This document shows positions 5,166 to 33,681 of a DNA stretch of 64,000 nt, in pieces. This DNA is from Rhodospirillaceae bacterium (GTDB lineage: Bacteria; Pseudomonadota; Alphaproteobacteria; UBA8366), in NCBI GenBank assembly GCA_002724395.1, contig PBOR01000042.1:57273-121272 (forward strand), written 5' to 3'. A program made the position numbers and the translations under genes. The notes beneath the pieces are model-generated. The model searched no databases, was not told where the DNA came from, and saw only the letters and a program-made list of their open reading frames with translations. Position 1 is the first letter of the stretch; every line of letters starts with the position of its first letter.

Positions 5166-5516
5166 TCACTCTATTGGTATAAAGAGCGAATGCCGTTCCT
5201 TGCCGTCGACAGAAGCAGAAAGATGTCCCTTGCCGTGTGTGTCCTCGACTAAGAAGACTTCCCCAGCTTTAATGATGCGAACTTCGCCATCGCTGGCGGT
5301 GATTTGAACTGCTGCATCTAGATTTACAATATATTGCCTCCGTGGCGCGGGATGCCAGTCTAGGTCGTAATCACCAACCGTTCGGCGAAAAATCATACCA
5401 TTGGTCGGCATTCTTTCGGATAATTGGCCATAGCCTTTGTCTTCGACCCACTCTATTTCGATATCACGGAAATGAGATTCGCCGTTTTCATCAGCGTAAA
5501 GATTGTGAATACGCAT
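5166..5516 (-). CDS. small cupin-like protein
   Basis: 116 residues. The pattern of short beta strands, with DYDLDWHPAPRRQYIVNLDAAVQI, an AGEVFLVEDTHGKGH segment and a final HSLFIPIE strand, resembles a single cupin barrel. Metal ligands are only partly visible (His in DWHPAPRRQ, His in DTHGKGH), so it may bind a metal weakly or not at all. The ATG at 5516 is preceded by AAGGGGTG. It lies 37 nt downstream of the DUF938 methyltransferase on the same strand, so co-transcription is likely. Function unknown. Confidence 0.75.
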   Translation of the reverse strand: MRIHNLYADENGESHFRDIEIEWVEDKGYGQLSERMPTNGMIFRRTVGDYDLDWHPAPRRQYIVNLDAAVQITASDGEVRIIKAGEVFLVEDTHGKGHLSASVDGKERHSLFIPIE

Positions 5517-5553: not shown

Positions 5554-6180
5554 TCATCGTGTGAGTACCAGAGAGAAGTTATTGGCTGGCATTTCGATTA
5601 TATGGCGAAGTAATAGGCCATTCTCCGCCGCTATCTTCTCTACTTCTTCAATATCTCGCACACCCCAAGCTGGGTCTTTTGCCTTTAAGGACAAATCAAA
5701 ACGAGCATTGCTCTCAGTTGTATGTTTCCCGCCTCGTTTATAGGGGCCGTAGAAATACAAAAATCCGTCTGCTCCGAGATGATGTGCTGCACGCTGCAGC
5801 AATTGCTCTGCTAAAGCCCAGGGTGAGATATGAATTACGTTAATACATATTATTGCTGCAAGTCCGGTCTCCGGCGCCATGCCTTTCAAACCGAGCCCCC
5901 AATGAGCTCGTAAGGCATCGAGCGACTTTGCCGGGCGCAAGTTTGTAAGGCCTATCTCCGTTTGCCATGCGTCAATACTTGCAAGGTGGTGTGGTTCTAT
6001 ATCTGTGGGCCAGAATGTCAGTAATGGAAAGTTGTTAGCAAAATACAATGCATGTTGACCAGAGCCTGAGCCAATTTCGAGCACATCTCCGGTCTTTCCG
6101 GTCAGATAGGATGAAAGTACGTCGCAGATTGCTTGGCTGTTACGGCCGGTTGCCGGAAAATCGAGGCGTAGATCATTCAT
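5554..6180 (-). CDS. DUF938 family SAM-dependent methyltransferase-like protein
   Basis: 208 residues, typical for DUF938. The SAM-binding motif I is VLEIGSGSGQHALYFA, followed by FWPTDIEPHH and INVIHISPWALAEQLLQ, both characteristic of the family; the C-terminal half carries FYGPYKRGGKHTTESN. DUF938 proteins have a class I methyltransferase fold but no settled substrate. The gene is divergent from the ThDP decarboxylase operon at 6295; the 114-nt interval must contain both promoters. Confidence 0.9.
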   Translation of the reverse strand: MNDLRLDFPATGRNSQAICDVLSSYLTGKTGDVLEIGSGSGQHALYFANNFPLLTFWPTDIEPHHLASIDAWQTEIGLTNLRPAKSLDALRAHWGLGLKGMAPETGLAAIICINVIHISPWALAEQLLQRAAHHLGADGFLYFYGPYKRGGKHTTESNARFDLSLKAKDPAWGVRDIEEVEKIAAENGLLLRHIIEMPANNFSLVLTR

Positions 6181-6294: not shown

Positions 6295-6810
6295 ATGGCC
6301 GAATCAACGGACGTACTTAGTCCAGAAACTGTGCACGGAAAATTCAAGGAGCATGGTATCAGTCATATTGTCTGGCTGCCGGATAGCGAAACTAATTTTC
6401 TGTTTACGTTGTTGGATACGGATCCGGACTTAAACATGGTCGGTGTAGGGCGCGAGGGGAATGCTTGTGCTATTGCGTCGGGATTATCGGCAGGCGGTGC
6501 GACGCCCGTTATTCTGATTCAGAATACAGGCTTGATGGAATCTGGTGATTCTATTAGGGGTTGGCTCAAGAGCTTAGAGATACCAGTCGTGCTCGTGGTT
6601 GGTTATCGGGGTTACACGCGTCACGGCGTTAATAAAGATACAGCGGCTGATTTCACCGAGCCATTCCTGAATGCGTTTCAGATTAAGTACTATCTTGTTG
6701 AGAGCGATAAGGATGCTGATCGTATCAGTGTTGCCTTTGAGGAAAGTAAAAAGATTAATGGGCCTGTCGTGGTGCTTGTCGCCGACGAATTCCATGGCTT
6801 CAATCGGTAG
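6295..6810 (+). CDS. ThDP-dependent decarboxylase, alpha (Pyr-domain) subunit, ComD / phosphonopyruvate decarboxylase-like
   Basis: 171 residues, corresponding only to the pyrimidine-binding domain of a ThDP enzyme. The activating glutamate is Glu54 in VGVGREGNACAIASGLS, followed by TPVILIQNTGLMESGDSI, the hallmark of the sulfopyruvate/phosphonopyruvate decarboxylase branch. Together with the next gene (PP domain, 15 nt away) it should form a heteromeric enzyme that decarboxylates a 3-substituted pyruvate to the matching aldehyde. Start ATG at 6295 is preceded by AGGGGAGG. Context with three 2-hydroxyacid dehydrogenases suggests the chain 2-hydroxy acid to 2-keto acid to aldehyde. Substrate is inference: sulfopyruvate, phosphonopyruvate or another 2-keto acid. 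Confidence 0.88.
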   Translation: MAESTDVLSPETVHGKFKEHGISHIVWLPDSETNFLFTLLDTDPDLNMVGVGREGNACAIASGLSAGGATPVILIQNTGLMESGDSIRGWLKSLEIPVVLVVGYRGYTRHGVNKDTAADFTEPFLNAFQIKYYLVESDKDADRISVAFEESKKINGPVVVLVADEFHGFNR

Positions 6811-6825
6811 AGGAGACTTCGAATC

Positions 6826-7416
6826 ATGATGGATACAGCGGAACTCCTTAAGGAGTTTAAGAAACATCGTGGCGACGCGATTGTTATTCCGGGTCGTGGT
6901 GGCAAACATTGGGTGCCAATCACGGACAACGAGAAGATGGATGCGACGTTGGGTGACCCGGCTATGGGAGGTCACTCAGGCTTTGGTCTCGGTGTCGCGT
7001 TGGCACAGCCAGAAAAAAAAGTGGTGCTGTTTGATTCAGATGGTGACATTCATATGAGCATGGGTATGTTCGCGACTATTGCTGAACAAGCACCGAAGAA
7101 TTTTTTCCACTTCATGCTGGATAATGAAATCTATGCGACGACTGGCGGCCAGCCTGTGCCAAACGCCAAGGTCGTTGATTATGCTGCGGTTGCTAAGGCT
7201 AATGGCTATCCGAAAGTAGCTTCCTATTCGGACCTTGAAGACCTAAAAGCGGATCTGCCTGATCTGTTGGCGTCGGAGGGTCCCATATTCGTACATATGA
7301 AGGTTTCTCCGACAGTGGAGAATACGCCGATAGGGCAGCGCAAGCCATGGAATAATCGTGACCGGGTTCAAGTGGTCGATGATCTGCGGGAATCGTTAAC
7401 CGGAAGTAGAAAATAG
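6826..7416 (+). CDS. ThDP-dependent decarboxylase, beta (PP-domain) subunit, ComE-like
   Basis: 196 residues, the pyrophosphate-binding half of the split enzyme. The ThDP/Mg motif starts at FDSDGDIHMSMG (about residues 69-80) and ends at MLDN (Asn100), with GDPAMGGHSGFGLGVALA before it as in ComE and phosphonopyruvate decarboxylase C-terminal halves. After the motif it reads EIYATTGGQPVPNA, where the family commonly has a Y-x-(S/T)-TGGQ pattern. Two adjacent ATGs (6826 and 6829) could start it; AGAGGAG lies upstream. The 64-nt interval before the next start leaves room for a weak internal signal, but the operon probably continues. Confidence 0.88.
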   Translation: MMDTAELLKEFKKHRGDAIVIPGRGGKHWVPITDNEKMDATLGDPAMGGHSGFGLGVALAQPEKKVVLFDSDGDIHMSMGMFATIAEQAPKNFFHFMLDNEIYATTGGQPVPNAKVVDYAAVAKANGYPKVASYSDLEDLKADLPDLLASEGPIFVHMKVSPTVENTPIGQRKPWNNRDRVQVVDDLRESLTGSRK

Positions 7417-7498
7417 GTTCTGCTGCACGAATACTTGAAGCAATGGTGCCTGCGTTATTAATTTGTGCAACATATAACGCGTGGCTAGGGGGGCTATG

Positions 7499-8713
7499 AT
7501 GGCGGTTGGAGATTTCGGCGCTTATAATATTGAGGATCTGCGACAGATCGCAAAAAAGCGGGTTCCGCGCGGTGTTTTTGGTTATGTGGACGGTGGGTCT
7601 GAAGATGGCATCGCTGTGAAAAATAACCGCGATGCCTACACCTCTCTTAAGATAAAAAACCGGGTCCTTGTTGACGTATCTGGGCGTTCTACAGAAACTA
7701 CTATCTTCGGCAGAAAGGCAACGATGCCATATGGGGTCTCGCCGACCGGTACTGCTGGGCTCATGTGGTATGGCGGCGAAGCCGGCGTCGCTATAGCAGC
7801 AACCAAGATGGGCGTGCCGTGCACGGTTGCTCTCAACGCTCAGACTTCGATGGAGGAAATTTGGGAGGCCGCAGGCGAGGGAGGCAACCTCTGGTTCCAG
7901 GTCTATATGTGGCCCGACAAAGACCTAAGCCTAAAGCAGATCGACCGGATCAAATCGGTTGGTTATGAAACCCTGATCATCACAGTTGACGGGCCAGTGG
8001 GCTCTAATCGCGAATACAACAAGAAAAATGGCTTTTCAATGCCACTCAAATATTCGGCGACGCTGTTTGCGCAATTGCTAGCTAAGCCGGGCTGGTTGAT
8101 CCGGGTATTGGGGCAGCACTACCTCAGACGCGGTGCGCCGACCATGGTCAACTACCCCGATGAATTAATCAGTCGGATCACCGATCCGATGCTCAAGCAT
8201 ATGCATACCAAAACTGATAATCTCACATGGGAGCATGTGCAGCGTATTCGTGACGCCTGGCCTGGAAATCTGCTGATCAAGGGACTTCAAAGTGCTGAGG
8301 ATGCCGTGATTGCTAAGGAGCGTGGGCTTGAAGGCGTAGTTCTATCTAACCACGGCGGTCGCTATGTAGACTCGGCGCCCGCGCCGCTACAGGTGGTGGC
8401 CGAAACGCGTAAAGCGGTCGGCAATAATTTCACCGTGATCATTGATAGCGGTGCACGGCGTGGATCCGATCTCGTCAAGGCGATCGCCTGTGGGGCAGAT
8501 CTCATTATGTCCGGGCGGCCAACTCTTTGGGGGGCTGCGGTGGCAGGTACCGATGGTTCCTATCAGGCTTTAGAAATATTTCAGACTGAGATGGACCGCG
8601 TCATGGCGCAGCTAGGTCTCAACAATGTCGATGAGATTGGGCCGCATATATTTTGGAACCCGCCCAACTGGGTACCGCAGGCGCCGCCGATGTTAAAGGC
8701 TGTAGCGGAGTAG
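7499..8713 (+). CDS. FMN-dependent alpha-hydroxyacid dehydrogenase/oxidase, paralogue 1 of 3
   Basis: 404 residues from the ATG at 7499. GTG 7481 and ATG 7496 are in frame, but alignment with paralogue 2 (M-x-x-GD-x-G-x-YNIEDLRQ) and the TAGGGGGG ribosome-binding site favour 7499. The enzymes oxidise 2-hydroxy acids to 2-keto acids with FMN. All active-site residues known from glycolate oxidase and flavocytochrome b2 are present: Tyr29, Tyr136 (WFQVYMW), Asp164 and Arg171 (TVDGPVGSNRE), Lys261 (LLIKG), His285 and Arg288 (SNHGGRYVD). The TVDGPVG motif departs from the common TVDTP-x-LG-x-R form but keeps the D-x6-R spacing. No heme domain or membrane segment. Electron acceptor unknown. Confidence 0.93.
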   Translation: MAVGDFGAYNIEDLRQIAKKRVPRGVFGYVDGGSEDGIAVKNNRDAYTSLKIKNRVLVDVSGRSTETTIFGRKATMPYGVSPTGTAGLMWYGGEAGVAIAATKMGVPCTVALNAQTSMEEIWEAAGEGGNLWFQVYMWPDKDLSLKQIDRIKSVGYETLIITVDGPVGSNREYNKKNGFSMPLKYSATLFAQLLAKPGWLIRVLGQHYLRRGAPTMVNYPDELISRITDPMLKHMHTKTDNLTWEHVQRIRDAWPGNLLIKGLQSAEDAVIAKERGLEGVVLSNHGGRYVDSAPAPLQVVAETRKAVGNNFTVIIDSGARRGSDLVKAIACGADLIMSGRPTLWGAAVAGTDGSYQALEIFQTEMDRVMAQLGLNNVDEIGPHIFWNPPNWVPQAPPMLKAVAE

Positions 8714-8717
8714 TGTA

Positions 8718-9935
8718 ATGACGATCGGCGATATGGGTTTCTATAATATCGAAGATTTACGCCAAAAGGCGAAAAAGCGGCTGCCCAAAGGTGTATTCGA
8801 GTATATTGATCTCGGGGCAGAAGATTACATCGCTCTTCGTAATAACCGTACTGCTTATGAGGAGCTTAAGACAAAGAATCGCGTTCTCATTGATGTTTCA
8901 AAACGCTCGACCGAAACGCAAATTTTTAACAACAAGATTAAGATGCCCTATGGGATTTCGCCGACGGCGTCTGCAGGTCTCACTAATTATGGTGGGGAGA
9001 TAGACCTGGCTAGGGCCGCCCAGCGCATGGGCGTCGTGTGTACTGCGGCTACTAGTGCGCTAACGCCAATGGAAGAGATCTGGGATGCAGCCGGTGGCGA
9101 AAATCTTTGGTTTCAGCTATATATGTGGGTCGATAAAGAGCTTCGTATGAAGTTTGTAGAAAATATTCAAGCGGTCGGTTACAAGACGCTGATAGTCACG
9201 GTAGACGGGCCGGTCGGCGCCAATCGTGAGCATAATAACCGAAATGGCTACTCCATGCCGCTCCGCTATTCGCCGCAGCTCGTGAGTGGAATTCTAGCCA
9301 AGCCCGGCTGGTGTTTTCGGGTATTGCTCAAACAATATCTGAAACGGGGATCGTTTCAGAAGGAAAATTATCCTGAGGAGTTAAACAAAAAACTCACCCA
9401 GTTGGACCTGGCTTCAGGCACCAAGCAGATCAAGCCGGATATGCAATGTTGGGATGATATCAAACGCATCCAGGAAATATGGAAGGGCAATTTGTTGATC
9501 AAAGGACTGCAAAGCGCAGAGGATGCGGTATTGGCTGCCGAGATGGGGCTAGATGGTGTCGTGCTTTCTAACCACGGCGGACGATATGTTGATAATGCGC
9601 CATCACCCTTGCAGGTGACAGCGGAAACGCGCGCTGCGGTAGGTAAGGATTTTAGAATTATCATTGATAGTGGGCCGCGGCGAGGGTCAGATATTGTAAA
9701 GGCGCTTGCCTGTGGAGCCAATATGGTAATGTCAGGCCGACCAACTCTTTACGGTGTGGCTGCTGCTGGCGAGGCAGGCGCCTATCGTGCGCTTGAAATT
9801 TTCTATACCGAGATGGATCGCATAATGGCCCAGCTCGGTTTGAACTCGGTCGATGAAATCGGTCCGCAGATTTTTTGGAACCCACCCGATTGGGTGCCGC
9901 AACCGAAGCTTGGCCTCAAGGTTGCAGCAGAATAA
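8718..9935 (+). CDS. FMN-dependent alpha-hydroxyacid dehydrogenase/oxidase, paralogue 2 of 3
   Basis: 405 residues, starting 4 nt after paralogue 1. The full catalytic set is kept: Tyr29 (VFEYIDLGAED), Tyr135, Asp163 and Arg170 (TVDGPVGANRE), Lys262, His286 and Arg289 (SNHGGRYVD). Compared with paralogue 1, the region around residues 225-240 carries an extra insert (TQLDLASGTKQIKPDMQCWDD). This lies in the segment corresponding to the mobile loop 4 of the family, which shapes substrate and acceptor access, so the copies may differ in specificity. Tandem placement and strong similarity point to local duplication, but DNA divergence shows it is not recent. Confidence 0.93.
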   Translation: MTIGDMGFYNIEDLRQKAKKRLPKGVFEYIDLGAEDYIALRNNRTAYEELKTKNRVLIDVSKRSTETQIFNNKIKMPYGISPTASAGLTNYGGEIDLARAAQRMGVVCTAATSALTPMEEIWDAAGGENLWFQLYMWVDKELRMKFVENIQAVGYKTLIVTVDGPVGANREHNNRNGYSMPLRYSPQLVSGILAKPGWCFRVLLKQYLKRGSFQKENYPEELNKKLTQLDLASGTKQIKPDMQCWDDIKRIQEIWKGNLLIKGLQSAEDAVLAAEMGLDGVVLSNHGGRYVDNAPSPLQVTAETRAAVGKDFRIIIDSGPRRGSDIVKALACGANMVMSGRPTLYGVAAAGEAGAYRALEIFYTEMDRIMAQLGLNSVDEIGPQIFWNPPDWVPQPKLGLKVAAE

Positions 9936-9947
9936 GGAGGATTAGCA

Positions 9948-11156
9948 ATGCCGAAGGACACTTCGAAATTCTACAACATTGAGGATTTGCGACAGCAAGC
10001 GAAGAGGAACCTGCCGCATGGGATTTTCGACTTTATCAATGGCGGCGCAGAAGATGGGATTGCGGTTGAAACCAATCGTGCTGCTTATACTAATCTCAAA
10101 ATTAAGAATAGGGTGTTGATCGACGTCTCGAAGCGGAGCACCGAAACGGAAATTTTTGGCAAAAAGATAGCCATGCCTTACGGCATCTCGCCGACCGGCG
10201 CCGCGGGCTTGGTTTATTACGGTGGTGAAATCGGACTGGCTAAGGCAGCGGCAAAAATGGGCGTGCCGTGCACGGTGGCGACCAATGCGCTATTGCCGAT
10301 GGAAGAAATCGCCGAAGCGGCGGGGGGTAATCTTTGGTTCCAGCTCTATATGTGGGCGGATAAAGAGATGAGCATGAAATTTCTAGAGCGTGTAAAGGCG
10401 GCTGGTTTCGATACCCTTATCGTCACCGTCGACGGGCCGGTAGGTCCTAACCGTGAATACAATAAAAAAAATGGTTTTGCGACGCCGCTCAAATACACAC
10501 CGAAACTCCTAGCCCAACTGTTGGTCAAACCCAATTGGTGTTATCAGGTGCTGCTTAAGCAGTATGTCAATCGCGGCGAATTTAAGAAGGAGAACTATCC
10601 GGAAGAGCTCGAACGCAGTGTTTTGTCGGCCAAAGAGGAGATGTCGGTAGTCAAGACTGATAGCCAGTGCTGGGAGGATTTGCGCAAAATTCGGGATATG
10701 TGGAAAGGGAATCTGTTGATTAAAGGTCTGCAGAGTGCGGAAGATGCGGTGCTCGCCGCCGATGAAGGGCTCGAGGGTGTTGTACTATCGAATCACGGCG
10801 GTAGATATGTCGACTGCGCACCGGCCCCGTTGCAGGTGCTTGCCGAGACTAAGGCCGCGGTTGGTGACCGCCTCAAGGTTATAATTGATTCTGGTGCTCG
10901 CCGGGGTTCCGATCTTGTAAAAGCTATGGCACTAGGAGCGGACATGGTAATGTCCGGTCGACCGACGCTGTTCGGTGCTGCCGCAGCCTACGAGGCGGGG
11001 GCATATCGGGCACTCGAAATCTTTCATACCGAAATGGATCGGGTTATGGCTCAGTTGGGGCTAAATAGTATTGATGAGATTGGGCCGCAAATATTCTGGA
11101 ATCCGCCGGAGTGGGTGCCACAGCCGGCGCCACTTTTGAGGGCGGCGGCGGAGTAA
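9948..11156 (+). CDS. FMN-dependent alpha-hydroxyacid dehydrogenase/oxidase, paralogue 3 of 3, with Phe at the first substrate tyrosine
   Basis: 402 residues; AAGGAGG lies 6 nt before the ATG at 9948 and the previous stop is 12 nt upstream. Tyr134, Asp162, Arg169, Lys259, His283 and Arg286 are all present, so it should bind FMN and abstract the substrate hydrogen. The residue equivalent to Tyr24 of glycolate oxidase (Tyr29 in the two sister copies) is Phe29 in GIFDFINGGAED, read directly as TTT. That tyrosine contacts the substrate carboxylate, so this copy may have changed affinity or substrate. It shares the loop-4-region insert with paralogue 2. It is the closest neighbour of the aminotransferase gene. 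Confidence 0.93.
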   Translation: MPKDTSKFYNIEDLRQQAKRNLPHGIFDFINGGAEDGIAVETNRAAYTNLKIKNRVLIDVSKRSTETEIFGKKIAMPYGISPTGAAGLVYYGGEIGLAKAAAKMGVPCTVATNALLPMEEIAEAAGGNLWFQLYMWADKEMSMKFLERVKAAGFDTLIVTVDGPVGPNREYNKKNGFATPLKYTPKLLAQLLVKPNWCYQVLLKQYVNRGEFKKENYPEELERSVLSAKEEMSVVKTDSQCWEDLRKIRDMWKGNLLIKGLQSAEDAVLAADEGLEGVVLSNHGGRYVDCAPAPLQVLAETKAAVGDRLKVIIDSGARRGSDLVKAMALGADMVMSGRPTLFGAAAAYEAGAYRALEIFHTEMDRVMAQLGLNSIDEIGPQIFWNPPEWVPQPAPLLRAAAE

Positions 11157-11193
11157 GCTGCTGACGAGTGTCACTAACGATTTTTATTCGGCG

Positions 11194-12510
11194 TTGAAGG
11201 CGCGAAAGGCGGAGATCGAGGTTCGCCACGCGGAGCTCACGCAAGGCTCGGCCGAACGCTTCGCAGTGGCGAGAAAGGTGTTGCCTGGCGGCTACACGCG
11301 CGACGCAATCATCCGAGACCCTTATCCGATCTTTATTGAGCGTGGCGAGGGCTCCACGGTAACCGATGTTGATGGGCGCTTACTCGATGATTGGTGTTTG
11401 AACGCAACGTCACTTGCAATTGGCCATGCCGATCCGCGCGTCGTGAAGGTCGCCATCGAGCAGACTACACGCGGCAGCGCCTTCCACACGATGACTGGCG
11501 ACGAAACTGCCTTGGCCGAGCTCCTAATCGAACGAATTCCATCGGCTGAAATGGTGCGCTTTACTAATTCCGGTAGTGAGGCAGTGATGATCGCCATACG
11601 TATTGCGCGTGGTGTGACCGGCCGCAAGCTAATCGTTAAATTCGAAGGTAGCTATCACGGTACCTACGACGAAGTGCAATGGTCTGTTGGACCACCGCTG
11701 GATAAGTTCGGTCCAGCAGATGATCCCAATGTTGTTGCTGATGGCGGCGGTTTAACCGGCAGTGACGGTAGGGTCTCCGTATTGCCTTATAACGATGCTG
11801 CAGTGTTGGAGGCGTTCATGACCGCATACGGCGAAGGTGTTGCGGCTGTTATCGTCGAGCCGATGGCAAACCGGATGGGCTCGGTGGTACCGGCGGCTGA
11901 TTTCCTTCAAAAAGCGCGTAATAGCTGTTCGTCGGCGGGTGCATTATTGATCTTTGACGAGGTGATTGCCTATCGCCTTGGTTATGGTGGTGCGCAGACG
12001 GTCTTTGGTATTAAGCCGGATATTACCACTCTCGGTAAAAGCATAGGCGGTGGGTTTCCTATCGGTGGTATTGTTGGGCGAAAAGACATCATGATGATAA
12101 CCGAGCCGGGTCGGAAAGGTCGCGTCACCCATGCCGGGACATATAACGGCAATCCGGTTACTATGTCCGCGGGACGTGTGACGCAGGAAGTGCTGACGCT
12201 CAATGTCCATCGCGAAATTGATGCGATGGGTGAATACATCCGCAGTGAGCTCCGCCATTTGACCGAGGGTCTGCCCATCACTGTCAGCGGTGGCGGTCCG
12301 TTCTTTAAGTTGAATGCGAGCGGGCGTAAAATTTTCAATTATCGTGATACTGTAAGCTGCGACAAAGAATGGCAGCGGCTAGCTTCTTTGGCGCTATTAA
12401 ATCGAGATATAGTGATTTCAGGATCCTTGGCGGGGTGCACCGCGTTGACAACAACCGACAAGCAGGTATCGTCGTTGTTAGAGGGTATAAAAGAGATATT
12501 GAACGTCTAG
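11194..12510 (+). CDS. class III PLP-dependent aminotransferase, glutamate-1-semialdehyde aminomutase-like
   Basis: About 438 residues from TTG 11194. Fold-type I features: the phosphate-binding TNSGSEAVMIAIRIARG, GSYHGTYDEVQWSV, the Asp of LLIFDEVIAYRLGYGGAQ, and the PLP lysine in TTLGKSIGGGFPIGG. Coproporphyrin-type GSA aminomutases share this layout, but genomic context among keto-acid enzymes suggests an aminotransferase for an aldehyde or keto acid. No ATG or GTG is available: the frame is open upstream to 11155 and the sequence just before 11194 (TNDFYSAL) looks coding, so a CTG start at 11161 with GGAG at 11150-11153, coupled to the preceding stop, is an alternative. It overlaps the convergent dehydrogenase gene by 4 nt. 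Confidence 0.88.
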   Translation: MKARKAEIEVRHAELTQGSAERFAVARKVLPGGYTRDAIIRDPYPIFIERGEGSTVTDVDGRLLDDWCLNATSLAIGHADPRVVKVAIEQTTRGSAFHTMTGDETALAELLIERIPSAEMVRFTNSGSEAVMIAIRIARGVTGRKLIVKFEGSYHGTYDEVQWSVGPPLDKFGPADDPNVVADGGGLTGSDGRVSVLPYNDAAVLEAFMTAYGEGVAAVIVEPMANRMGSVVPAADFLQKARNSCSSAGALLIFDEVIAYRLGYGGAQTVFGIKPDITTLGKSIGGGFPIGGIVGRKDIMMITEPGRKGRVTHAGTYNGNPVTMSAGRVTQEVLTLNVHREIDAMGEYIRSELRHLTEGLPITVSGGGPFFKLNASGRKIFNYRDTVSCDKEWQRLASLALLNRDIVISGSLAGCTALTTTDKQVSSLLEGIKEILNV

Positions 12511-13478
12511 TACCCTCGTGCCGGATCGACGATATTCGCCAGCGTCTCTCCTTTGATCCAGCGTTCGAGATTGTTGCAAAAAAGGTCGGTTACGTCATCT
12601 TCCCAATTTACCATATCGCCGGCAGTGTGCGGCGTGATGACCACGTTCTCTAATGTCCAGAGCGGGCTCTCGGGAGGCAGTGGCTCGGTAGCAAAAACGT
12701 CGAGTACAGCACCGCCGAGACGGCCACTTTCGATTGCGGCTACCAAAGCGTTTTCCTCGACGATATGGCCGCGGCCGGTATTGATCAGACAGGCACCGGG
12801 TTTCATTGTCGCAATGACCTCCGCGTTAAATAGGCCGCGTGTTTCCTCGGTTAGCGGTAATACATTAAGTACAAAGTCCGCCTTGCCGAGAGCGTCGTGA
12901 AGCCGGTCGGTGCCGACCACCTCGTCTGCATGTTCGGATGGTTTGGGGTGGGTGCGAACGCCGATGACTTTGAGCCCAACGGCTTTAGCGAGCCGCCCAA
13001 CCTCTGCACCGATCCTCCCGAAACCGATCACGGCGAGTGTCGCACCAGCGGCAGAGACTAGTAGTTTCTTATCCCAGAGGCTTTTCGATTGATTACGCGC
13101 CATACGCGGGAAGCCGAGCCCGTGATTGAGGATTGCCCATAGAGTGTATTGTGCCATCACTTCAGCATGTATACCTGACGCATTGGTGATTATGACCTTG
13201 TTGGTGTCCCAAGGCGTCCAGTGATCCACTCCGGCGCCCGAAGCCTGAATCCATTTCACGCTATCACAGCAGAGGATGGCTTCGCGAGGAAAGGGTTCAC
13301 TCTTGCCGATCTTGAAGGCGAAAACTATTTCTGGTTTTTGCGCATCGAGTGCATCTGGTACTGCGTCATGACTATCAACGGTAACAAGTGGCAATTCCGG
13401 CATTCTGGTGAGAATTTGACGGGCAAGCGGCTCCGGTTCAGCCTGAAACAGAAGGGTCTTTGGCAAGGCCTTATTCAT
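12507..13478 (-). CDS. D-2-hydroxyacid dehydrogenase (NAD(P)-dependent)
   Basis: 323 residues. The Rossmann motif is AVIGFGRIGAEVGRLAKAVG, followed by LPLTEETRGLFN, the arginine region LINTGRGHIVEE, the E of FATEPLPPESPLW and the catalytic-histidine strand ITPHTAGDM. Such enzymes interconvert 2-keto acids and D-2-hydroxy acids; several glyoxylate/hydroxypyruvate reductases belong here. The gene converges with the aminotransferase and lies 31 nt downstream of the MFS carrier gene on the same strand, so it may be the last gene of the acid-sugar operon. Substrate unknown. Confidence 0.92.
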   Translation of the reverse strand: MNKALPKTLLFQAEPEPLARQILTRMPELPLVTVDSHDAVPDALDAQKPEIVFAFKIGKSEPFPREAILCCDSVKWIQASGAGVDHWTPWDTNKVIITNASGIHAEVMAQYTLWAILNHGLGFPRMARNQSKSLWDKKLLVSAAGATLAVIGFGRIGAEVGRLAKAVGLKVIGVRTHPKPSEHADEVVGTDRLHDALGKADFVLNVLPLTEETRGLFNAEVIATMKPGACLINTGRGHIVEENALVAAIESGRLGGAVLDVFATEPLPPESPLWTLENVVITPHTAGDMVNWEDDVTDLFCNNLERWIKGETLANIVDPARGY

Positions 13479-13509: not shown

Positions 13510-14736
13510 TTATAGCCGGCGGTTTAGTGTGAGAATGAGCGCCAAACCTGCGGTTGCCATTGTTGCCAAGAAAGCAAAGAAATATCGGAATCCTTCGGCC
13601 CCAGCATGGGTGTCGAGAAACCAGCCCGCGATCAGGTGCGAGAAAATATCTGGTGTATAGGCGATCATAGAAACTAGTCCAATTGAAATGCCGGTCAACG
13701 CATGCGGGATCCGGCATTCTTCCATCAATGCGAAATATATACCGCGTAATGCGAACAGCATTACGGAGATTACTGCAACCTGTGCGAATAATAATTGGTA
13801 AGAGCTGGCTGACGATGGGACCGCCCAGAGCGAACCGTATAGCAACGCGAGAGTGGAAAAACCTATGGCGATGCCACGGTTGACGCCAATTCTGTCTGCG
13901 ATCAAGCCGGCGAAGATTGCAGCGATAGGGCGCAGCCAATCGCGGAATGTGCCAAGTTGGGCCCCGAAAAGTTTGCTTTCACCAAGGCCGCGTTCTGCGT
14001 ATGCCGGGAAGTAATAGGAACCAGTGAAAATCAGATAAGCAAAAAATATGATGCCGGCCATAAACCATACTTTCGGTGTCGTCAGGGCACGCCGCAGTAA
14101 GCCCTCGGCAGAACTTTTTGCTGTGCCTTGCATCGGGGTGTCCTCGGCGAGCAGAAACCAGACAATGATGCCACTCAGCAAAGGAGCGCCAGAATAAACC
14201 CATATCACAGCGACCAGCCCTGCGCGCGGATTTGCATCTCCGCCAGCGAAGGCGAAGGCAGTGGTTGCAACTGTCGCCATAACGGCAGCGGTGGCACCGC
14301 GCCCGCCCTCGAGTAGTCCGAAACTCGTACCTTGAGTTTCTGACGTGCCCCAGAGCCGCGTTGCCTTAAGTAGCGCGGCCCAAAAGGTGAGGATCGAGGT
14401 CACGCCCCAAAACGCGTGCAGCGCAAGCATTTGTGGATAGGTCGGTATCGCCAGCATCACAAGCCCTCCGGCACCGGTGGCTATAAGCGAGAAGGATAGT
14501 AAGCGACGCACGGATATCCGATCCGCGAGCCAGCCGCCGGGCAGGTAACAGGCAAGCGCCAAGAGGCCGAACATAGAGCTCAGAAAACCCAGCTCGAAAC
14601 TTGAAATGCGAAAGACTTCTTCCAGGGACGTTTGAAAGGTTTTTCGCATATAAGGCAAGAGGAAGATTGTTTCCCCCGCCAGCATAAGACTAGCCATGGT
14701 CAGCCAACGGTGAAGGTTAGATGTGTGGGAGAGCAT
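13510..14736 (-). CDS. MFS transporter
   Basis: 408 residues with about 12 hydrophobic segments. The loop after TM2 reads GGWLADRISVRRLLSFS, the usual MFS A-motif, and the repeat in the second half is AGLIADRIGVNRG. Overall it resembles organic-anion/sugar-acid carriers. It sits between the aldolase/kinase pair of the tetronate type and the D-2-hydroxyacid dehydrogenase, so uptake of a four-carbon sugar acid is a reasonable inference. A 171-nt gap with a dispersed-repeat-like hairpin separates it from the upstream otnC-like gene. Confidence 0.88.
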   Translation of the reverse strand: MLSHTSNLHRWLTMASLMLAGETIFLLPYMRKTFQTSLEEVFRISSFELGFLSSMFGLLALACYLPGGWLADRISVRRLLSFSLIATGAGGLVMLAIPTYPQMLALHAFWGVTSILTFWAALLKATRLWGTSETQGTSFGLLEGGRGATAAVMATVATTAFAFAGGDANPRAGLVAVIWVYSGAPLLSGIIVWFLLAEDTPMQGTAKSSAEGLLRRALTTPKVWFMAGIIFFAYLIFTGSYYFPAYAERGLGESKLFGAQLGTFRDWLRPIAAIFAGLIADRIGVNRGIAIGFSTLALLYGSLWAVPSSASSYQLLFAQVAVISVMLFALRGIYFALMEECRIPHALTGISIGLVSMIAYTPDIFSHLIAGWFLDTHAGAEGFRYFFAFLATMATAGLALILTLNRRL

Positions 14737-14860
14737 AGCTTTACCGTCTTAGGGCCGGAACTTCCGGTAGTGTGGGGGGCCAGATGAGTTCAAATGAAAG
14801 TGAAGGCGGGTAGAATGCCTTAATTAATTTTACATGCATTGAATGAACTTAAACAACATT

Positions 14861-14887
14861 CTGGATACCCGTCTTTGCGGAAATGAC
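14861..14887. repeat. single copy of a REP-like imperfect palindrome
   Basis: The 27-nt segment begins CTGGATACCCG and ends GCGGAAATGAC. It matches the general form of the small dispersed hairpin repeat (TGGAT-x-CCCG ... CGGG-x-ATGAC) found between genes in many proteobacteria. Here one arm has decayed. It lies in the otnC-MFS intergenic gap. Only one copy was noticed in the window. Confidence 0.4.
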
Positions 14888-14907
14888 TTTGATGCCTGGG
14901 CGCTGGC

Positions 14908-15543
14908 TCAATTAGCAAAATTTTTCTGCAGTGCCGCTACTTGTTCGTCGGTCAGGAATCTTGTTTTTACGTCTTTCAGCATCAGGAACAGCTTAGCGGT
15001 TTCCTCTAGTTCCTCTGTAGCATAAACCGCGTCTTCCAGTGATTTACCAGCGACGACAGGTCCGTGATTGGCGAGTAGTACCGCGTGATGGTCAGACGCC
15101 ATTTCCCGAACCGCTCGGGCAAGGTTTAAATCGCCGGGTGGAAAATAGGGCACCAGCGGTAGCGAACCGATTTTCATAACGTAATAGGCGGTGATTGGCG
15201 GCAGCACGTTCTTTGGGTTGATGTCGTGTAGGCAACTAACCGCAACCGAATGAGTCGAATGTAGGTGGACAACAGCGCCGGTCTGCGGCCGTTCCTCGTA
15301 CATTGCGATATGTAGAAAGGATTCCTTAGTCGGGGGGTCGCCGGAAATAAGATTTCCGTCATTGCCAAGTTTGGAGATTTTCGCCGGATTGAGGTTGCCC
15401 ATGGTGGAGCCGGTCGGCGTCATCAGCCAGCCATCCTCGATACGCGCGCTGATATTGCCCGATGAGCCGAATGTTAGGCCTCTGTCATACATAGATTTGG
15501 CTAGGCGTGTGATGTCGTCTCGCATTTTGGTTTCCTGGCTCAT
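14908..15543 (-). CDS. otnC: class II aldolase/adducin family protein, 3-oxo-tetronate 4-phosphate decarboxylase-like
   Basis: 211 residues, standard length. Class II aldolase signatures are FGSSGNISARIEDGWLMTPTG, the metal-binding VVHLHSTHSVAVSC, and HHAVLLANHGPVVAGKSLEDA. Its start codon abuts the stop of the OtnK-like kinase gene (TAAATG), matching the known OtnK-OtnC partnership in which a kinase makes 3-oxo-tetronate 4-phosphate and OtnC decarboxylates it to dihydroxyacetone phosphate. The pairing makes OtnC more likely than fuculose-phosphate or ribulose-phosphate aldolase, but the assignment rests on context. Confidence 0.86.
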   Translation of the reverse strand: MSQETKMRDDITRLAKSMYDRGLTFGSSGNISARIEDGWLMTPTGSTMGNLNPAKISKLGNDGNLISGDPPTKESFLHIAMYEERPQTGAVVHLHSTHSVAVSCLHDINPKNVLPPITAYYVMKIGSLPLVPYFPPGDLNLARAVREMASDHHAVLLANHGPVVAGKSLEDAVYATEELEETAKLFLMLKDVKTRFLTDEQVAALQKNFAN

Positions 15544-16821
15544 TTATGCGTCTCCTCTTTGGAGAATATCGAATGCGTTTTCAAAAAAATTATCTTCGCC
15601 AAAATTGCCCGATTTTAGGGCCAGAGCAATTTCAACTGCACCTATGGATTCCGTCCACGGAACACCAGGCGATATTTCCGTTCCAATACGAAGAGCTTCG
15701 ATATCAAGCGCCTTCACCACAGCGCCAGAGGTTTCGCCGCCTGCAGCGATCAATCGATCCACACCATTATTTACTAAAGAGTTGGCAATCGTTCCTAACA
15801 CGCGCTCAATCTTTTCTCCCACTTCCTTGCTGCCGTACTTGGCTTGAACTTTAGCAACCTTTTCAGGTTCGTCAGATGCATAAATCAATATGGGCCCGGT
15901 ATCGAGTAAGGGTACTGCCCAAGCAATAGCCTTCTTGGCGACCTCTTCGCCTTCCATTACCGCACTAGGGTTAATCTTGAAGGCCGGCCGGTTATTTTGC
16001 CATACGGTGACTTGTTTGCGGGTACGTATCGAGCAACTTCCCGCTAGGATGGCTTGGTGGCCTTTTTGATTGGGTAACCGGGCAGCTACAGTGTCTTTTA
16101 GTAAACCGCCAATACGATAGTTTTCTGGCAAGCCAAGAGCGACTCCGGAGCCGCCGGTTATGAGTTTTAGGTCCGCGGAAGCGGCCCCGATTGTCATCAG
16201 GTCTGGATCGCCAATAGCGTCTACGATAGCATAGCGCACGCCGGCTTGGTGAAGGTCATCATATGCAGCCCGCACAGCTTTCTCTCCGTTTATGACACTA
16301 GCGTATTCAATCAGTCCGACTTTTTGCGATGTTTGACGTCCCAAAACTCGCACCAAATTAGAATCGGTCATCGGCGTGAGAGGATGATTACGCATACCGG
16401 AATCTGATAAAAGCTCATCTCCGACGAAGAGATGGCCCTTATAGATGGTCCGTCCATTGGTAGGAAATGCGGGGCAGACAATAGTGAAGTCCTCGCCTAA
16501 GGATTCCATAAGTGCATCTGTAACGGGACCGATATTACCACTATCGGTAGAGTCGAAGGTGGAGCAATACTTGAAAAAGAATTGCTGCGCACTGTGGTCC
16601 TGTAGCCAGGCCAGCGCCGCCAGTGATTGGTCGATGGCCTCTTTGGCTGGAATGGTCCGAGATTTGAGTGCAATCACTACGGCTTGCGCATCGCCAAGAT
16701 CGATGTTGACCTTTGGCACGCCGATCAGCTGAATCGTGGGCATGCCTTGTTTTACGAGTGTATTCGCCAAATCGGTGGCGCCGGTAAAGTCGTCTGCAAT
16801 ACATCCCAGTATAATGGTCAT
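15544..16821 (-). CDS. otnK: four-carbon acid sugar kinase family protein (3-oxo-tetronate kinase-like)
   Basis: 425 residues, typical of the DUF1537 kinases. The N-terminal substrate domain carries GCIADDFTGATDLANTLV and ALKSRTIPAKEA, then FKYCSTFDSTDSGNIGPVTD and CPAFPTNGRTIYKG. The C-terminal nucleotide-binding domain has LIAAGGETSGAVVKAL and the terminal GIEI-like element as SIGAVEIALALKSGNFG. The enzyme phosphorylates C4 acid sugars such as 3-oxo-tetronate with ATP. AAGGATCC precedes the ATG at 16821. An upstream tetronate dehydrogenase (LtnD/DenD type) and an OtnI isomerase are not in the immediate neighbourhood, so the source of the oxo acid is open. Confidence 0.9.
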   Translation of the reverse strand: MTIILGCIADDFTGATDLANTLVKQGMPTIQLIGVPKVNIDLGDAQAVVIALKSRTIPAKEAIDQSLAALAWLQDHSAQQFFFKYCSTFDSTDSGNIGPVTDALMESLGEDFTIVCPAFPTNGRTIYKGHLFVGDELLSDSGMRNHPLTPMTDSNLVRVLGRQTSQKVGLIEYASVINGEKAVRAAYDDLHQAGVRYAIVDAIGDPDLMTIGAASADLKLITGGSGVALGLPENYRIGGLLKDTVAARLPNQKGHQAILAGSCSIRTRKQVTVWQNNRPAFKINPSAVMEGEEVAKKAIAWAVPLLDTGPILIYASDEPEKVAKVQAKYGSKEVGEKIERVLGTIANSLVNNGVDRLIAAGGETSGAVVKALDIEALRIGTEISPGVPWTESIGAVEIALALKSGNFGEDNFFENAFDILQRGDA

Positions 16822-16901
16822 GAGGATCCTTCGATTTACAGCGTCTTTTGACGGTGTGGATTAACATGTAATGGCAAATAGCGCGAGTAAGAGTGAAGAA
16901 T

Positions 16902-18311
16902 TTAACTGGGTTGGAGCGCTTTCATAAGTTGGGATACCTTTTCCAGTGTTTCTAGATCAGCGATCATTTCTATTGCATCATCGCGTTGATCAGCTGAAAT
17001 AACCCCATCTGAGCAATCAACGAACTTTCCGACGATATCGTCCCATGTGGCTGGCTCTTCCGACCAACCACGCGCATAGGATCGTGCATGGTTGATCGTC
17101 CGACCGTCTTTCAGGTGGAAGGCGATCCGCATTTCCGCCCAATTGACGCCATCTACCCCCCATTGGCCGCGATGATGGGCGAAGTCTTCTGGCACGTCGA
17201 CGTCGACCTTTTTCATGAGGGGCTGGACGTCACCTTTATCTACGCGGGATTGATCGTACTGGGCGAGGCCGTTTTTGCCATCTATTAAACTGACGGCGAT
17301 GGACCATTTGAGACTGTAGCGTGCCTTATAGGAATCCTCGACCTCGTCATAGCAGGCGATGGCGCGGGCCTGTGGCGTCACTTCCGCATGTACACGCTCG
17401 ATATCATCTGCGTTAATCCCGTGTTCGGAAATAACGTCGAGTACAGCATCAATTGTCGAGGCGGGAGCGGTGGAGCCGGGGTGAAAACAGACGATTGTGG
17501 TGTTTTCCGCCAATTCCCAGCGTTTACCTAATTTGTCAGTCATAAGCGATAGATCAAATCCGTCTTCACCAGCGAAACATACCGCGAGGCCAAATTTTTC
17601 ATGGCCACCCACGTCAGTCTCTGACGGCTCGATAATATCTGGGTCCATCTGGTATCCTCGCTCGGCCAGCAAAGTCGCGAAGACACCGCATTTTGCCCCG
17701 TGACCGACATGGAAAGCTTTTCCCATTGACCCAACATTTTTGCGCAGGCCGGAACCTTCAGATGCCGCGACGGCAATCGCCATCCGTGTTTGAGCTACAT
17801 TAAGCCCGCCCATCCGAGCGCCAGCGACGGCTACCCCAATGGAACCCAAGATCGCATTTGGATGCCATCCTCGGTCTAACAAGGCTGGTCGTATCCCTCG
17901 CGCGACACGGCTTTCTACTTCGAAGCCAGTTATAAAACCCGCCATCAGGTCGCGGCCCGATAGGTCTCGATCTTCTGCATAGGCCAATGAGCCTGGTACC
18001 ATAACAACACTCGCATGAGTCACCCCCTTCGTATAGTCGTCATATTCCTGTGCGTGAGCAGCCGTGGCGTTTACATAGGCGGCCAAGGGAGATGAGGTGC
18101 GGTCCTTTTGGCCGATGATACTTGCACGTTCGGTGCCCCCCATATGCCGGGCGGTATCAAGGGCAATGAGCGTCGATTTCTGGTTGGCACCCGCCAGCGC
18201 AATGCCCGTCATATCGAGAATACGTAGTTTCGCTGACTCAGCTGCCGCATCGGGAATATCTTCCCAACGCGTTTCTATTGCCAACTTCGCCAATACTTCA
18301 GTAACGCCCAT
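16902..18311 (-). CDS. MmgE/PrpD family protein, copy 2
   Basis: 469 residues from ATG 18311, chosen because GGAGGC lies 7 nt upstream; an in-frame TTG at 18326 includes that ribosome-binding site and is rejected. MmgE/PrpD proteins include 2-methylcitrate dehydratase, aconitate decarboxylase and aconitate isomerase relatives. Visible signatures are the N-terminal helical domain (ILDMTGIALAGANQKST), VNATAAHAQEYDDYTKGVTHAS, GWHPNAILGSIGVAVAGARM and MGKAFHVGHGAKCGVFATLL. It follows copy 1 by 26 nt and precedes otnK by 80 nt. The two copies are clearly diverged. Reaction unknown; dehydration or decarboxylation of a hydroxy diacid is the family theme. Confidence 0.9.
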   Translation of the reverse strand: MGVTEVLAKLAIETRWEDIPDAAAESAKLRILDMTGIALAGANQKSTLIALDTARHMGGTERASIIGQKDRTSSPLAAYVNATAAHAQEYDDYTKGVTHASVVMVPGSLAYAEDRDLSGRDLMAGFITGFEVESRVARGIRPALLDRGWHPNAILGSIGVAVAGARMGGLNVAQTRMAIAVAASEGSGLRKNVGSMGKAFHVGHGAKCGVFATLLAERGYQMDPDIIEPSETDVGGHEKFGLAVCFAGEDGFDLSLMTDKLGKRWELAENTTIVCFHPGSTAPASTIDAVLDVISEHGINADDIERVHAEVTPQARAIACYDEVEDSYKARYSLKWSIAVSLIDGKNGLAQYDQSRVDKGDVQPLMKKVDVDVPEDFAHHRGQWGVDGVNWAEMRIAFHLKDGRTINHARSYARGWSEEPATWDDIVGKFVDCSDGVISADQRDDAIEMIADLETLEKVSQLMKALQPS

Positions 18312-18337
18312 GATACTGCCTCCCAATATTTTTAGTT

Positions 18338-19687
18338 TTAAGGTGTTGCCACTGTTGCGATATCAGCAGCATTCGCTAGGTTTGCCGCATTACGGCAAGT
18401 TTCGATAAGCCTTTCCGTGCCCGCATCACCGAGCATCGGTCTACAGAGATCGCGAGTTTTGTCATCCATCTGTGCGTCGCTAATGGGGTTCTCTAGGCTA
18501 CCGAGGGCTTTTTTGATATATTTTTTGAAAGTACGCCCATCTTTGGTGTTGATGGTGATACCCATGGCGTCTGCGGGGACAGTCGGGTCGATTTCTGGCT
18601 TTACCCTTTGGCGGAGCGAAACGGCAATAGGATCATTCACCGCTGCATCTGAGAATTCATTTTCGCCGCCTTTGCCATGTTGAATGGCAATGGCGCAGGC
18701 ATGGTAAATACTAAACTTTCCCTCGAGCCCGGTGCTCGGGCTTTCTTTGCCGGTAAGTTCCATCACCAGCGGATTAACTTTAAGGTTAATACTTTCAACA
18801 TCATTCGGTTTGAAACCATACTCGTCGCGCAATTGGCTGCAGCCATCGATCGCAGGATGCACCACCACGCCGCTTGCGAATGGTTTATAAGAGTTCTCGG
18901 AAATTAAGAATTTCTCGCCAAGTCCTTCAGTAATGAATGAATAGTCTTGCTTGGTAGAGGTAACATTCGCCCAGCCGCGTTTTGCTTCTATACCTTGTTC
19001 TGAGCTAGTGAAGCCATTGCTCGCAAGCATTGCTGACATCAATCCATTCTTGGCGGCATTGCCTACATGGAAACTTTTACACATGGAGCCAAACATTTCC
19101 CGCATGCCAGAAGATTGGGTTGCAGCAAGACCCATCGCCCAACGAGTTTGCTGCGGGTTATTACCCAGTAATCGGCTGGCGGCGGCGGCCGCACCAAAAA
19201 TACCGGCTGTACCGGATATATGCCAGCCCACACTATAATGATCGGGGGATACGGATTGCCCGAGACGACAGGTCACATCAATACCGAGGATTATGGCGTG
19301 GAGGAATTCGGCACCGGAGATCTGTCTCTTTTCTGCAATTGGGAGGATAGCGGCTGCTATGGGGCCTGCAGGGTGGATAGCGGTAGCCAAATGCGTATCA
19401 TCGAAATCGAAGACGTGGCTTGAAATTCCATTGATGAGAGCGGCATTTAGTCCGTCGGTTTGCTCCTTACGACCCAGAATGGAAGCCCTGCCGACCTCGG
19501 TTCTGAGCCCCATAGTCTTTAAAACAATCTCTACAGATTCATGTTTGCACCCCCCGATAGCAACGCCCATCCAATTCAATAAGGTGCGTGCGGATTCCAA
19601 TTTTACATCCTCAGGAATATTCTCAAAACGAGAATTGAGAACAAAGTCGGCAAGAATAGCGGTCACATTAGTAGAGGTATCAGTCAT
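18338..19687 (-). CDS. MmgE/PrpD family protein, copy 1
   Basis: 449 residues. Family motifs: LLNWMGVAIGGCKHESVE, INGISSHVFDFDDTHLATAIHP with the conserved acidic D-D-T-H signature, SVGWHISGTAGIFGAAAAAS, and MCKSFHVGNAAKNGLMSAML. The gene lies 5 nt downstream of a small cupin and 26 nt upstream of the second MmgE/PrpD gene, in one operon with the OtnK/OtnC pair. Copy 1 retains the FDFDDTH motif more completely than copy 2 (EYDDYTK), so the two may catalyse different steps or form a heteromer. Annotation as a 2-methylcitrate dehydratase would go beyond the evidence. Confidence 0.9.
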   Translation of the reverse strand: MTDTSTNVTAILADFVLNSRFENIPEDVKLESARTLLNWMGVAIGGCKHESVEIVLKTMGLRTEVGRASILGRKEQTDGLNAALINGISSHVFDFDDTHLATAIHPAGPIAAAILPIAEKRQISGAEFLHAIILGIDVTCRLGQSVSPDHYSVGWHISGTAGIFGAAAAASRLLGNNPQQTRWAMGLAATQSSGMREMFGSMCKSFHVGNAAKNGLMSAMLASNGFTSSEQGIEAKRGWANVTSTKQDYSFITEGLGEKFLISENSYKPFASGVVVHPAIDGCSQLRDEYGFKPNDVESINLKVNPLVMELTGKESPSTGLEGKFSIYHACAIAIQHGKGGENEFSDAAVNDPIAVSLRQRVKPEIDPTVPADAMGITINTKDGRTFKKYIKKALGSLENPISDAQMDDKTRDLCRPMLGDAGTERLIETCRNAANLANAADIATVATP

Positions 19688-19692
19688 TTGAC

Positions 19693-20070
19693 TTACCCAT
19701 CCCCCGTGCCGAAGCCGCTGCCGGCTTTGCGGTACTCATCCCTCGGTGGACTGAATATATCGAGGACGGTAGCGCCGTCGGGTCCTGCCTTTACCGTGTG
19801 GGGCACATTGGGCGGTGTGCGCCAAAAATCACCTTTTTTGACAGGAAATGCCTTGTCACCCTGATATCGAGTGAGGGAACCATCCAAGAGAACACCCCAC
19901 TGTTCTTCAGGATGATGGTGTATTTTACCTTCCGCATTGGCATCAATAGTCACAACAGAAAGCATGGCATGATCGCCCGGGAATATCCGTGTGTTTATAC
20001 CTGGTCCGAGTTCTCTTGCGATGCCAAGTGCTGTATTGTGAAGATTAAAAAGCGTATCATTGTCGCTCAT
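19693..20070 (-). CDS. cupin domain protein
   Basis: 125 residues from ATG 20070, selected over ATG 20085 because GGAGGA lies 6-8 nt upstream of it. Single-domain cupin: IHHHPEEQWGVLLDGSLTRY gives the first motif with three histidines and a glutamate, and GDFWRTPPNVPHTV gives the second motif with its histidine, a full metal site. The C-terminus is SPPRDEYRKAGSGFGTGDG. Small cupins of this type are often isomerases or lyases of sugar acids or sensors. First gene of the MmgE/PrpD-otnKC operon, divergent from the M81 gene at 20218. Confidence 0.88.
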   Translation of the reverse strand: MSDNDTLFNLHNTALGIARELGPGINTRIFPGDHAMLSVVTIDANAEGKIHHHPEEQWGVLLDGSLTRYQGDKAFPVKKGDFWRTPPNVPHTVKAGPDGATVLDIFSPPRDEYRKAGSGFGTGDG

Positions 20071-20217
20071 TGTATCCTCCTCCATGTGAAATTATTACTA
20101 TTTGGTCTAAAAGAGCGAAGCGTAAGAGAACCGTCAAGAGTACTTCTATTTTTTGACACTCTGTTTCTCAGCGCCTCGGAGCCTTATAAAGAAGTAGTAA
20201 AAATAGGGGAGGTTCTC

Positions 20218-21747: not shown

Positions 21748-21815
21748 TTCGCTCCGGAAACCTATCTGGCCGTTGATACCTAGAGGTAGGTTTGGAACCA
21801 TTCTATTTCATAGGC

Positions 21816-22769: not shown

Positions 22770-22781
22770 AATGTTGTTTCC

Positions 22782-23606: not shown

Positions 23607-23638
23607 AGTTCTTCCAGTCGTTTAGTCGTTTAAAGGGA

Positions 23639-25375: not shown

Positions 25376-25552
25376 GCCGGCCTCCCTATCTGCGGATTTA
25401 TGATGCCGCAAGTTGGCGCTACGGTAAGCGGGCACGCGCGGTTTTGCAATGTCTCTCTAATATGCTTGACCCTTCTTGGTAAGGGGAATTGCGCATTGCT
25501 GGAGCGATAGTTACAAATCAGCAAAGGTAACGATTTAATAAGGGAGAGTGTG

Positions 25553-30170: not shown

Positions 30171-30200
30171 ATAAAACAATTACTTAAGATATTTTCCAAA

Positions 30201-30218
30201 TTGTAACAAAACCTTAAT
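30201..30218 (+). promoter_or_regulatory. possible Pho box upstream of pstS
   Basis: TTGTAAC-AAAA-CCTTAAT matches the E. coli pstS Pho box (CTGTCAT-AAAA-CTGTCAT) at 12 of 18 positions, with the same AAAA spacer. It lies 95 nt before the pstS start in an AT-rich intergenic region. PhoB binding here is inference. Confidence 0.45.
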
Positions 30219-30312
30219 ATTTATTTTATATTTATGTAAACGTGCAGCTCTACTTACCGCATTGTTCGGGCTTCGTGCTCGTTAATTTATGTTGGTAGGA
30301 GATTATAGAATT

Positions 30313-31389: not shown

Positions 31390-31440
31390 CTAAGTAACAC
31401 GTTGCAAAACAAACGAAATTATAGCGGGGACGGGGCACGG

Positions 31441-33658: not shown

Positions 33659-33681
33659 TTAACCAGATAATGGAGAGATCA

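Follow-up and report, generated by a model that had tools for sequence, protein, structure and literature searches.

What does a locus do in which a thiamine diphosphate (ThDP) enzyme split into two genes is followed by three tandem flavin mononucleotide (FMN)-dependent 2-hydroxyacid dehydrogenases? This array lies in a 64,000-nucleotide stretch (the window; positions 57,273 to 121,272 of PBOR01000042.1, assembly GCA_002724395.1) of a marine Rhodospirillaceae bacterium. The window is part of contig 7 of a 3.41 Mb genome in 75 contigs. We propose, with somewhat more confidence than doubt, that the array encodes a two-step oxidative module similar to the mandelate pathway, in which an L-2-hydroxy acid would be converted to a 2-oxo acid and then to an aldehyde and CO2. 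The five genes are:

6295..6810, plus strand: ThDP alpha, the pyrimidine-binding half with a REGN motif (open reading frame, profiles, best solved relative RhiE, 9iz3 chain A)
6826..7416, plus strand: ThDP beta, the pyrophosphate-binding half (open reading frame, profiles, tree, best solved relative RhiF, 9iz3 chain B)
7499..8713, plus strand: FMN1, FMN-dependent L-2-hydroxyacid dehydrogenase of the Tyr24/Gly79/Asn108 type (open reading frame, Pfam, alignment, tree)
8718..9935, plus strand: FMN2, paralogue of the Tyr24/Ala79/Ser108 type (same evidence)
9948..11156, plus strand: FMN3, paralogue of the Phe24/Gly79/Asn108 type (same evidence)

The original prediction, made from the DNA alone, had placed genes of these types at 6295-13478; all of its reading frames were confirmed and Pfam agrees with its gene types. 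FMN_dh (PF01070) matches FMN1-3 over the whole domain with 380, 381 and 402 bits, respectively (cut-off 24.9), TPP_enzyme_C matches ThDP beta with 63 bits (cut-off 21.9), and TPP_enzyme_N scores 25.5 bits on ThDP alpha, slightly below its cut-off of 26.8. FMN1 starts either at the ATG at 7499, as originally chosen, or at a GTG at 7481. FMN3 is 99% identical to a copy in the Rhodospirillaceae metagenome-assembled genome (MAG) SAT126.

Conservation of the five-gene set

The comparison covered 43 genomes of the order, 11 of them from the window's family, and 14 control genomes; of 25 relative loci, L037-L044 and L046 supplied the gene neighbourhoods, L045, L048, L053 and L058 entered the tree, and the other 12 were unused. 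A search with FMN3 in the order gave three matches per genome (E up to 1e-140) in each of 5 genomes, which all belong to the window's family. In every one of these (5/11 of the family) the tandem FMN1-3 array lies immediately 3' of ThDP alpha and beta, in the order FMN1-FMN2-FMN3 in the window's genus (2 genomes) and FMN3-FMN1-FMN2 in another genus (3 genomes). In a sixth genome, a fragmented Rhodospirillales MAG, the ThDP pair and each of the three dehydrogenase types are spread over two contigs whose flanks are different. One contig has the C-terminal 99 residues of an FMN3-type protein (86% identical to FMN3, 80% to FMN2 and 78% to FMN1) together with a complete FMN2-type gene and both ThDP genes; the other ends inside its FMN1-type gene, and the two presumably adjoin.

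Ka/Ks amounts to 0.011-0.071 for all five genes in two comparisons inside genera; all five are thus under strong purifying selection. Synonymous sites are saturated between the genera. The recurrence of the array in the family, together with these values, implies that it is neither a chance arrangement nor an assembly duplication, and that ThDP alpha and beta and the three FMN dehydrogenases are a real module. A relative of FMN3 occurs in 8/9 order genomes with ThDP alpha and in 7/34 without it (Fisher p 0.0003, uncorrected for relatedness). The dehydrogenase/ThDP part of the gene set that the original prediction had put up for a conservation check is therefore conserved together, in 5/11 family genomes and one further MAG.

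The split ThDP enzyme and the three dehydrogenases

The ThDP pair had been described as of the ComDE/phosphonopyruvate-decarboxylase type, which holds at the superfamily level; below that level the curated cut-offs are missed widely. The halves score 83 bits (cut-off 147.95) and 105 bits (cut-off 221.5) with the sulfopyruvate decarboxylase models TIGR03845 and TIGR03846, and 46.7 (alpha) and 105.9 (beta), scored apart, with the one-chain phosphonopyruvate decarboxylase (Ppd) model TIGR03297 (cut-off 312.5). By these cut-offs the pair is neither ComDE nor Ppd. Among solved structures, both halves are closest to 9iz3 (chains A and B), the structure of RhiEF, which has been characterised as a phosphonopyruvate decarboxylase of two subunits (PMC12141560). 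ComDE and RhiEF, like the pair described here, consist of two separate half-size subunits; unlike them, our pair lies under all curated cut-offs (ComDE being compared via profile models, not sequences) and has its own motifs and its own clade. In the beta tree (36 rows) it falls in an 11-row clade (98/98), separate from six Ppd-type rows and with active-site motifs unlike those of the Ppd type, and the pairs linked to dehydrogenases group in a single subclade (6 rows, 94/84).

Among the six Ppd-type rows, the one from the window's own genome was tested against the cut-off and serves as a positive control: it scores 414.8 bits (cut-off 312.5), and its gene overlaps a phosphoenolpyruvate (PEP) mutase gene (388 bits, cut-off 319.6). 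This pair is on contig 7, about 36 kb before the window. Since a genuine PEP mutase/Ppd pair exists elsewhere in the same genome, the originally suggested phosphonopyruvate/phosphonolactate route is unlikely. No phosphonatase scored above its cut-off in the 11 family genomes, nor in the 14 control genomes, hence this search has no positive control; on these two grounds the phosphonate route was rejected as the main reading. The contig 7 region at about 18.8-21.6 kb (L128:6798-9603), with nucleotidyltransferase-like genes near the overlapping pair, is a phosphonate biosynthesis locus.

The ThDP clade is rare. ThDP alpha was found at E up to 1e-45 in 9/43 genomes of the order and 3/385 sampled genomes of the class, at E up to 1e-40 in 1/398 sampled genomes of the phylum, namely its own, and at E up to 1e-5 in 13/72,556 plasmid records, of which 7 from Bradyrhizobium are 64% identical; the clade is thus present in a cultured organism. 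On the Bradyrhizobium plasmids an amidase gene precedes the ThDP pair, which is directly followed by an aldehyde dehydrogenase; in B. guangxiense (L111:10330-21023) an ATP-binding cassette transporter and an aminotransferase complete the row. With a score of 245 against a cut-off of 700 for SafD, and of 272 against 636 for phosphonoacetaldehyde dehydrogenase, this aldehyde dehydrogenase falls short of both.

The FMN tree holds 39 of 42 rows, those shorter than 250 residues having been dropped. FMN2 and FMN3 of the family each form their own clade (5 rows, 100/99), and so does FMN1 including the copy of the fragmented MAG (6 rows, 100/99), the FMN2-type gene of which is found in a wider FMN2 group (17 rows, 100/98), outside the family FMN2 clade. 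Because each forms its own clade across the family, the paralogues are older than the genera and are ancient separate lineages. A recent triplication or an assembly artefact was rejected on the recurrence of the array, the tree and Ka/Ks.

The alignment shows the catalytic His/Arg/Lys/Asp/Tyr set retained in FMN1-3 at positions 129, 157, 164, 230, 254 and 257, which we take to be glycolate oxidase numbering, here and for the pocket. The pocket positions 24/79/108 are Tyr/Gly/Asn in FMN1, Tyr/Ala/Ser in FMN2 and Phe/Gly/Asn in FMN3; their equivalents in (S)-mandelate dehydrogenase, counted on the structure alignment, are Tyr26, Gly81 and Ala110. The latter two positions control pocket size and have small residues in all three enzymes. 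According to PMC10153336, true mandelate dehydrogenases have small residues at both. FMN2 departs from (S)-mandelate dehydrogenase at position 79, where, in place of Gly, it carries the Ala of glycolate-type enzymes. FMN1-3 thus appear to have more spacious pockets than lactate or glycolate enzymes.

The best full-length solved relative of FMN3 is (S)-mandelate dehydrogenase 6bfg, with an alignment that runs through the membrane segment of 6bfg; 6bfg is also the best fold match of the FMN3 model, which is weak (mean predicted local distance difference test score, pLDDT, 64) and supports the fold only. LldD, lactate oxidase and MftD share with FMN1-3 the family PF01070, the full-length match and the catalytic residues, but all three dehydrogenases fall below the cut-offs of these models, and a mycofactocin MftD identity was rejected on this score. 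In three genomes of another family (L094, L097, L099) single FMN2-type dehydrogenases adjoin luciferase-like monooxygenase genes.

Flanking genes

The genes around the array are:

5554..6180, minus strand: DUF938, methyltransferase-like, divergent conserved neighbour (Pfam, locus comparison)
11194..12510, plus strand: class III aminotransferase, HemL-like but under the HemL cut-offs, outside the conserved set (profiles, locus comparison)
12507..13478, minus strand: D-2-hydroxyacid dehydrogenase, convergent to the array, conserved neighbour (profiles, locus comparison)
13510..14736, minus strand: major facilitator superfamily (MFS) transporter, conserved neighbour (locus comparison)
14908..16821, minus strand: function probably separate from the array

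DUF938, the D-2-hydroxyacid dehydrogenase (2-Hacid_dh_C, 185 bits, cut-off 25.1) and the MFS transporter stand near the array in 5/5 family genomes that carry it. Plasmid matches of the D-2-hydroxyacid dehydrogenase were tried as a functional clue and yielded no function. Both loci of the window's genus contain the aminotransferase (Aminotran_3, 191 bits, cut-off 30.5), but no match to it was obtained in the three loci of the other genus (L038, L039 and L100). Because it is absent from these loci, the amination to a taurine- or aminoethylphosphonate-like product that the original prediction had envisaged is unsupported, and for this gene, confined at the locus to the window's genus, the proposed conservation of the gene set failed.

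A small protein at 5166-5516 (minus strand), cupin-like by eye and with no Pfam match, has a relative of 30% identity in the fragmented MAG (L043:9568-9915), immediately ahead of FMN1 there, and no match in L038, L039 and L100. The region 13510-26479, mainly on the minus strand, is a sugar-acid region with OtnK, OtnC, arabinonate dehydratase, an aldolase and a second D-2-hydroxyacid dehydrogenase. At 29085-34521 a PhoR-type sensor kinase is followed by ordinary phosphate transporter genes (PstS-like, PstC, PstA, PstB). The annotation covers the window genes up to 34.5 kb. Promoter-like sites (11, shuffle mean 7.9) are not clearly above shuffles; these and terminator-like sites (15, shuffle mean 7.9) were not used.

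Candidate pathways and their meaning

In the module that we favour, L-2-hydroxy acids would be converted to 2-oxo acids by up to three FMN dehydrogenases, probably membrane-associated, with the respiratory chain receiving the electrons. Decarboxylation of the 2-oxo acid would fall to the two-subunit ThDP enzyme, and the aldehyde would be consumed by products of genes elsewhere. The neighbouring MFS transporter probably imports the substrate, and the D-2-hydroxyacid dehydrogenase probably handles its D-isomer. The order from 2-hydroxy acid through 2-oxo acid to aldehyde, already put forward in the original prediction, matches the usual chemistry of these enzyme families. Since the old paralogues differ at pocket positions 24, 79 and 108, FMN1-3 most likely act on substrates with different side chains, or else they form distinct subunits of a single enzyme. 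Gene content, conservation, selection, catalytic residues and family placement are observed here; from them we infer that both enzymes share a metabolite, in which direction the reactions run, what accepts the electrons and what class the substrate belongs to, the substrate being probably bulkier than lactate and perhaps polar.

The mandelate pathway (MdlB/MdlC) has the same order of chemistry, with (S)-mandelate dehydrogenase, the closest full-length solved relative among FMN enzymes and one with similarly small size-controlling residues, followed by benzoylformate decarboxylase. It differs in that the ThDP enzyme described here is split and nearer to RhiEF than to benzoylformate decarboxylase, and in that our array has three dehydrogenases and is without an aldehyde dehydrogenase. 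The aldehyde dehydrogenase gene directly behind the Bradyrhizobium relative of the ThDP pair speaks for the proposed module.

Several observations weigh against this proposal. No aldehyde-consuming enzyme was found within the array. The top two structure-search rows for FMN3 are lactate oxidase constructs, with a score summed over four stretches, and the putative membrane segment is just mildly hydrophobic and modelled with pLDDT <50. The conservation of the array across the two genera is a portion of a longer syntenic block that extends to PrpD and MlrC and partly explains it. Seven loci (G002, G003, G137, G053, G030, G031 and the Bradyrhizobium plasmids) have the ThDP pair with no FMN gene near, ThDP alpha and the FMN3 relative are on different contigs in G002, G030 and G031, and FMN2-type genes are without a nearby ThDP pair in the nine f3 genomes having one (neighbourhoods read for eight). 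Searches at order level around G137 and G053 covered 2 genomes and 1 genome, respectively, and contributed nothing further.

Such separate occurrences would suit a situation in which the ThDP pair and the dehydrogenases act on different substrates and are neighbours by history, as would the variety of genes beside ThDP relatives elsewhere: hydantoinase A/B, a gamma-glutamyltranspeptidase-family gene, or the Bradyrhizobium amidase and aldehyde dehydrogenase. We consider this unlikely, as the association outlasts the changes of order within the family and recurs in a further lineage with other flanks, which argues that it exceeds mere synteny. Hydantoinase A/B adjoins the ThDP pair in G137, G030 and G031 (L107, L130, L131), and the gamma-glutamyltranspeptidase-family gene in G053 (L108); as substrate clues these genes and PrpD were given no weight, there being no base rate and further copies in the genomes (e.g. 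L129).

Another candidate is sulfolactate, the stereochemistry of which fits the enzymes of the locus. The FMN enzymes would oxidise L-configured (R)-sulfolactate and the D-2-hydroxyacid dehydrogenase (S)-sulfolactate, the ThDP pair would convert sulfopyruvate to sulfoacetaldehyde, and Xsc would cleave the latter. This resembles, at the level of the reactions, sulfolactate degradation by SlcC/SlcD/ComC and Xsc, where hydroxyacid dehydrogenases serve both enantiomers. Xsc is encoded on contig 41 (927 bits, cut-off 676), beside SauS (761 bits, cut-off 600), and is above the cut-off in 8/11 family genomes, among them each of the five that carry the array, and in 0/14 control genomes; the host should thus be able to use sulfoacetaldehyde. 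The ThDP halves match the sulfopyruvate decarboxylase models, if weakly, and Ruegeria pomeroyi has an annotated sulfolactate dehydrogenase that is membrane-bound (PMC4334477). However, the halves are far under the cut-offs of these models, with active-site motifs that differ from the Ppd type, no sulfonate gene was recognised at the array locus (the TauD-family protein at 4019 was rejected as a taurine dioxygenase because it scored below that cut-off), and Xsc also occurs in G004, a genome without the ThDP clade. Moreover, nothing ties Xsc and SauS to the locus, and their cluster has its own apparent source of sulfoacetaldehyde. A sulfonate substrate, as originally suggested, thus stands as a possibility through the presence of Xsc and SauS but lacks a link from these genes to the locus, and we regard the sulfolactate route as distinctly unlikely. 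In the contig 41 cluster (about 40.5-46.1 kb, L121:5529-11078), Xsc is accompanied by SauS, a divergent acylating sulfoacetaldehyde dehydrogenase, and by a SucCD-like pair that passes the succinate-CoA ligase cut-off with its beta half and narrowly misses it with its alpha half. The cluster resembles one for the use of sulfoacetate, in which the activating enzyme would be of the succinate-CoA ligase type.

Still less probable, and in our view very unlikely, is sugar-acid (tetronate/aldonate) catabolism, in which the dehydrogenases would supply 2-oxo sugar acids to OtnK/OtnC and the arabinonate-dehydratase region, with the ThDP pair as a side branch. OtnC (331 bits, cut-off 250), OtnK (632 bits, cut-off 350), arabinonate dehydratase (978 bits, cut-off 882) and the aldolase lie on the minus strand within 12 kb of the array, OtnC and OtnK accompany the array in the window's genus and L038, and the known L-threonate route opens with a 2-dehydrogenase (PMC12540250). 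That route requires no ThDP decarboxylase, however, and L039 has OtnC with just a 52-residue OtnK match and L100 neither, while the array, the D-2-hydroxyacid dehydrogenase and the MFS transporter remain. The short match (L039:16888-17043), beside an intact OtnC, perhaps reflects gene decay or an assembly gap.

The enzyme types are already known; a literature search for their combination found no publication on the gene set, and as far as that search goes the combination is new. A bolder version of the mandelate-like module, which we hold tentatively and as rather doubtful, is a new catabolic route as a marine counterpart of the mandelate pathway, in which a common marine 2-hydroxy acid would be processed by three FMN dehydrogenases, specialised for different side chains or acting as subunits of a mixed enzyme, and a split ThDP decarboxylase of new specificity. 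The locus marks a split-ThDP clade, also carried on Bradyrhizobium plasmids, which superfamily likeness would misname sulfopyruvate or phosphonopyruvate decarboxylase. The residue differences among the three dehydrogenases predict different substrates, and the five genes, encoding two kinds of enzymes, provide a small testable set for the use of 2-hydroxy acids in uncultured marine Rhodospirillaceae.

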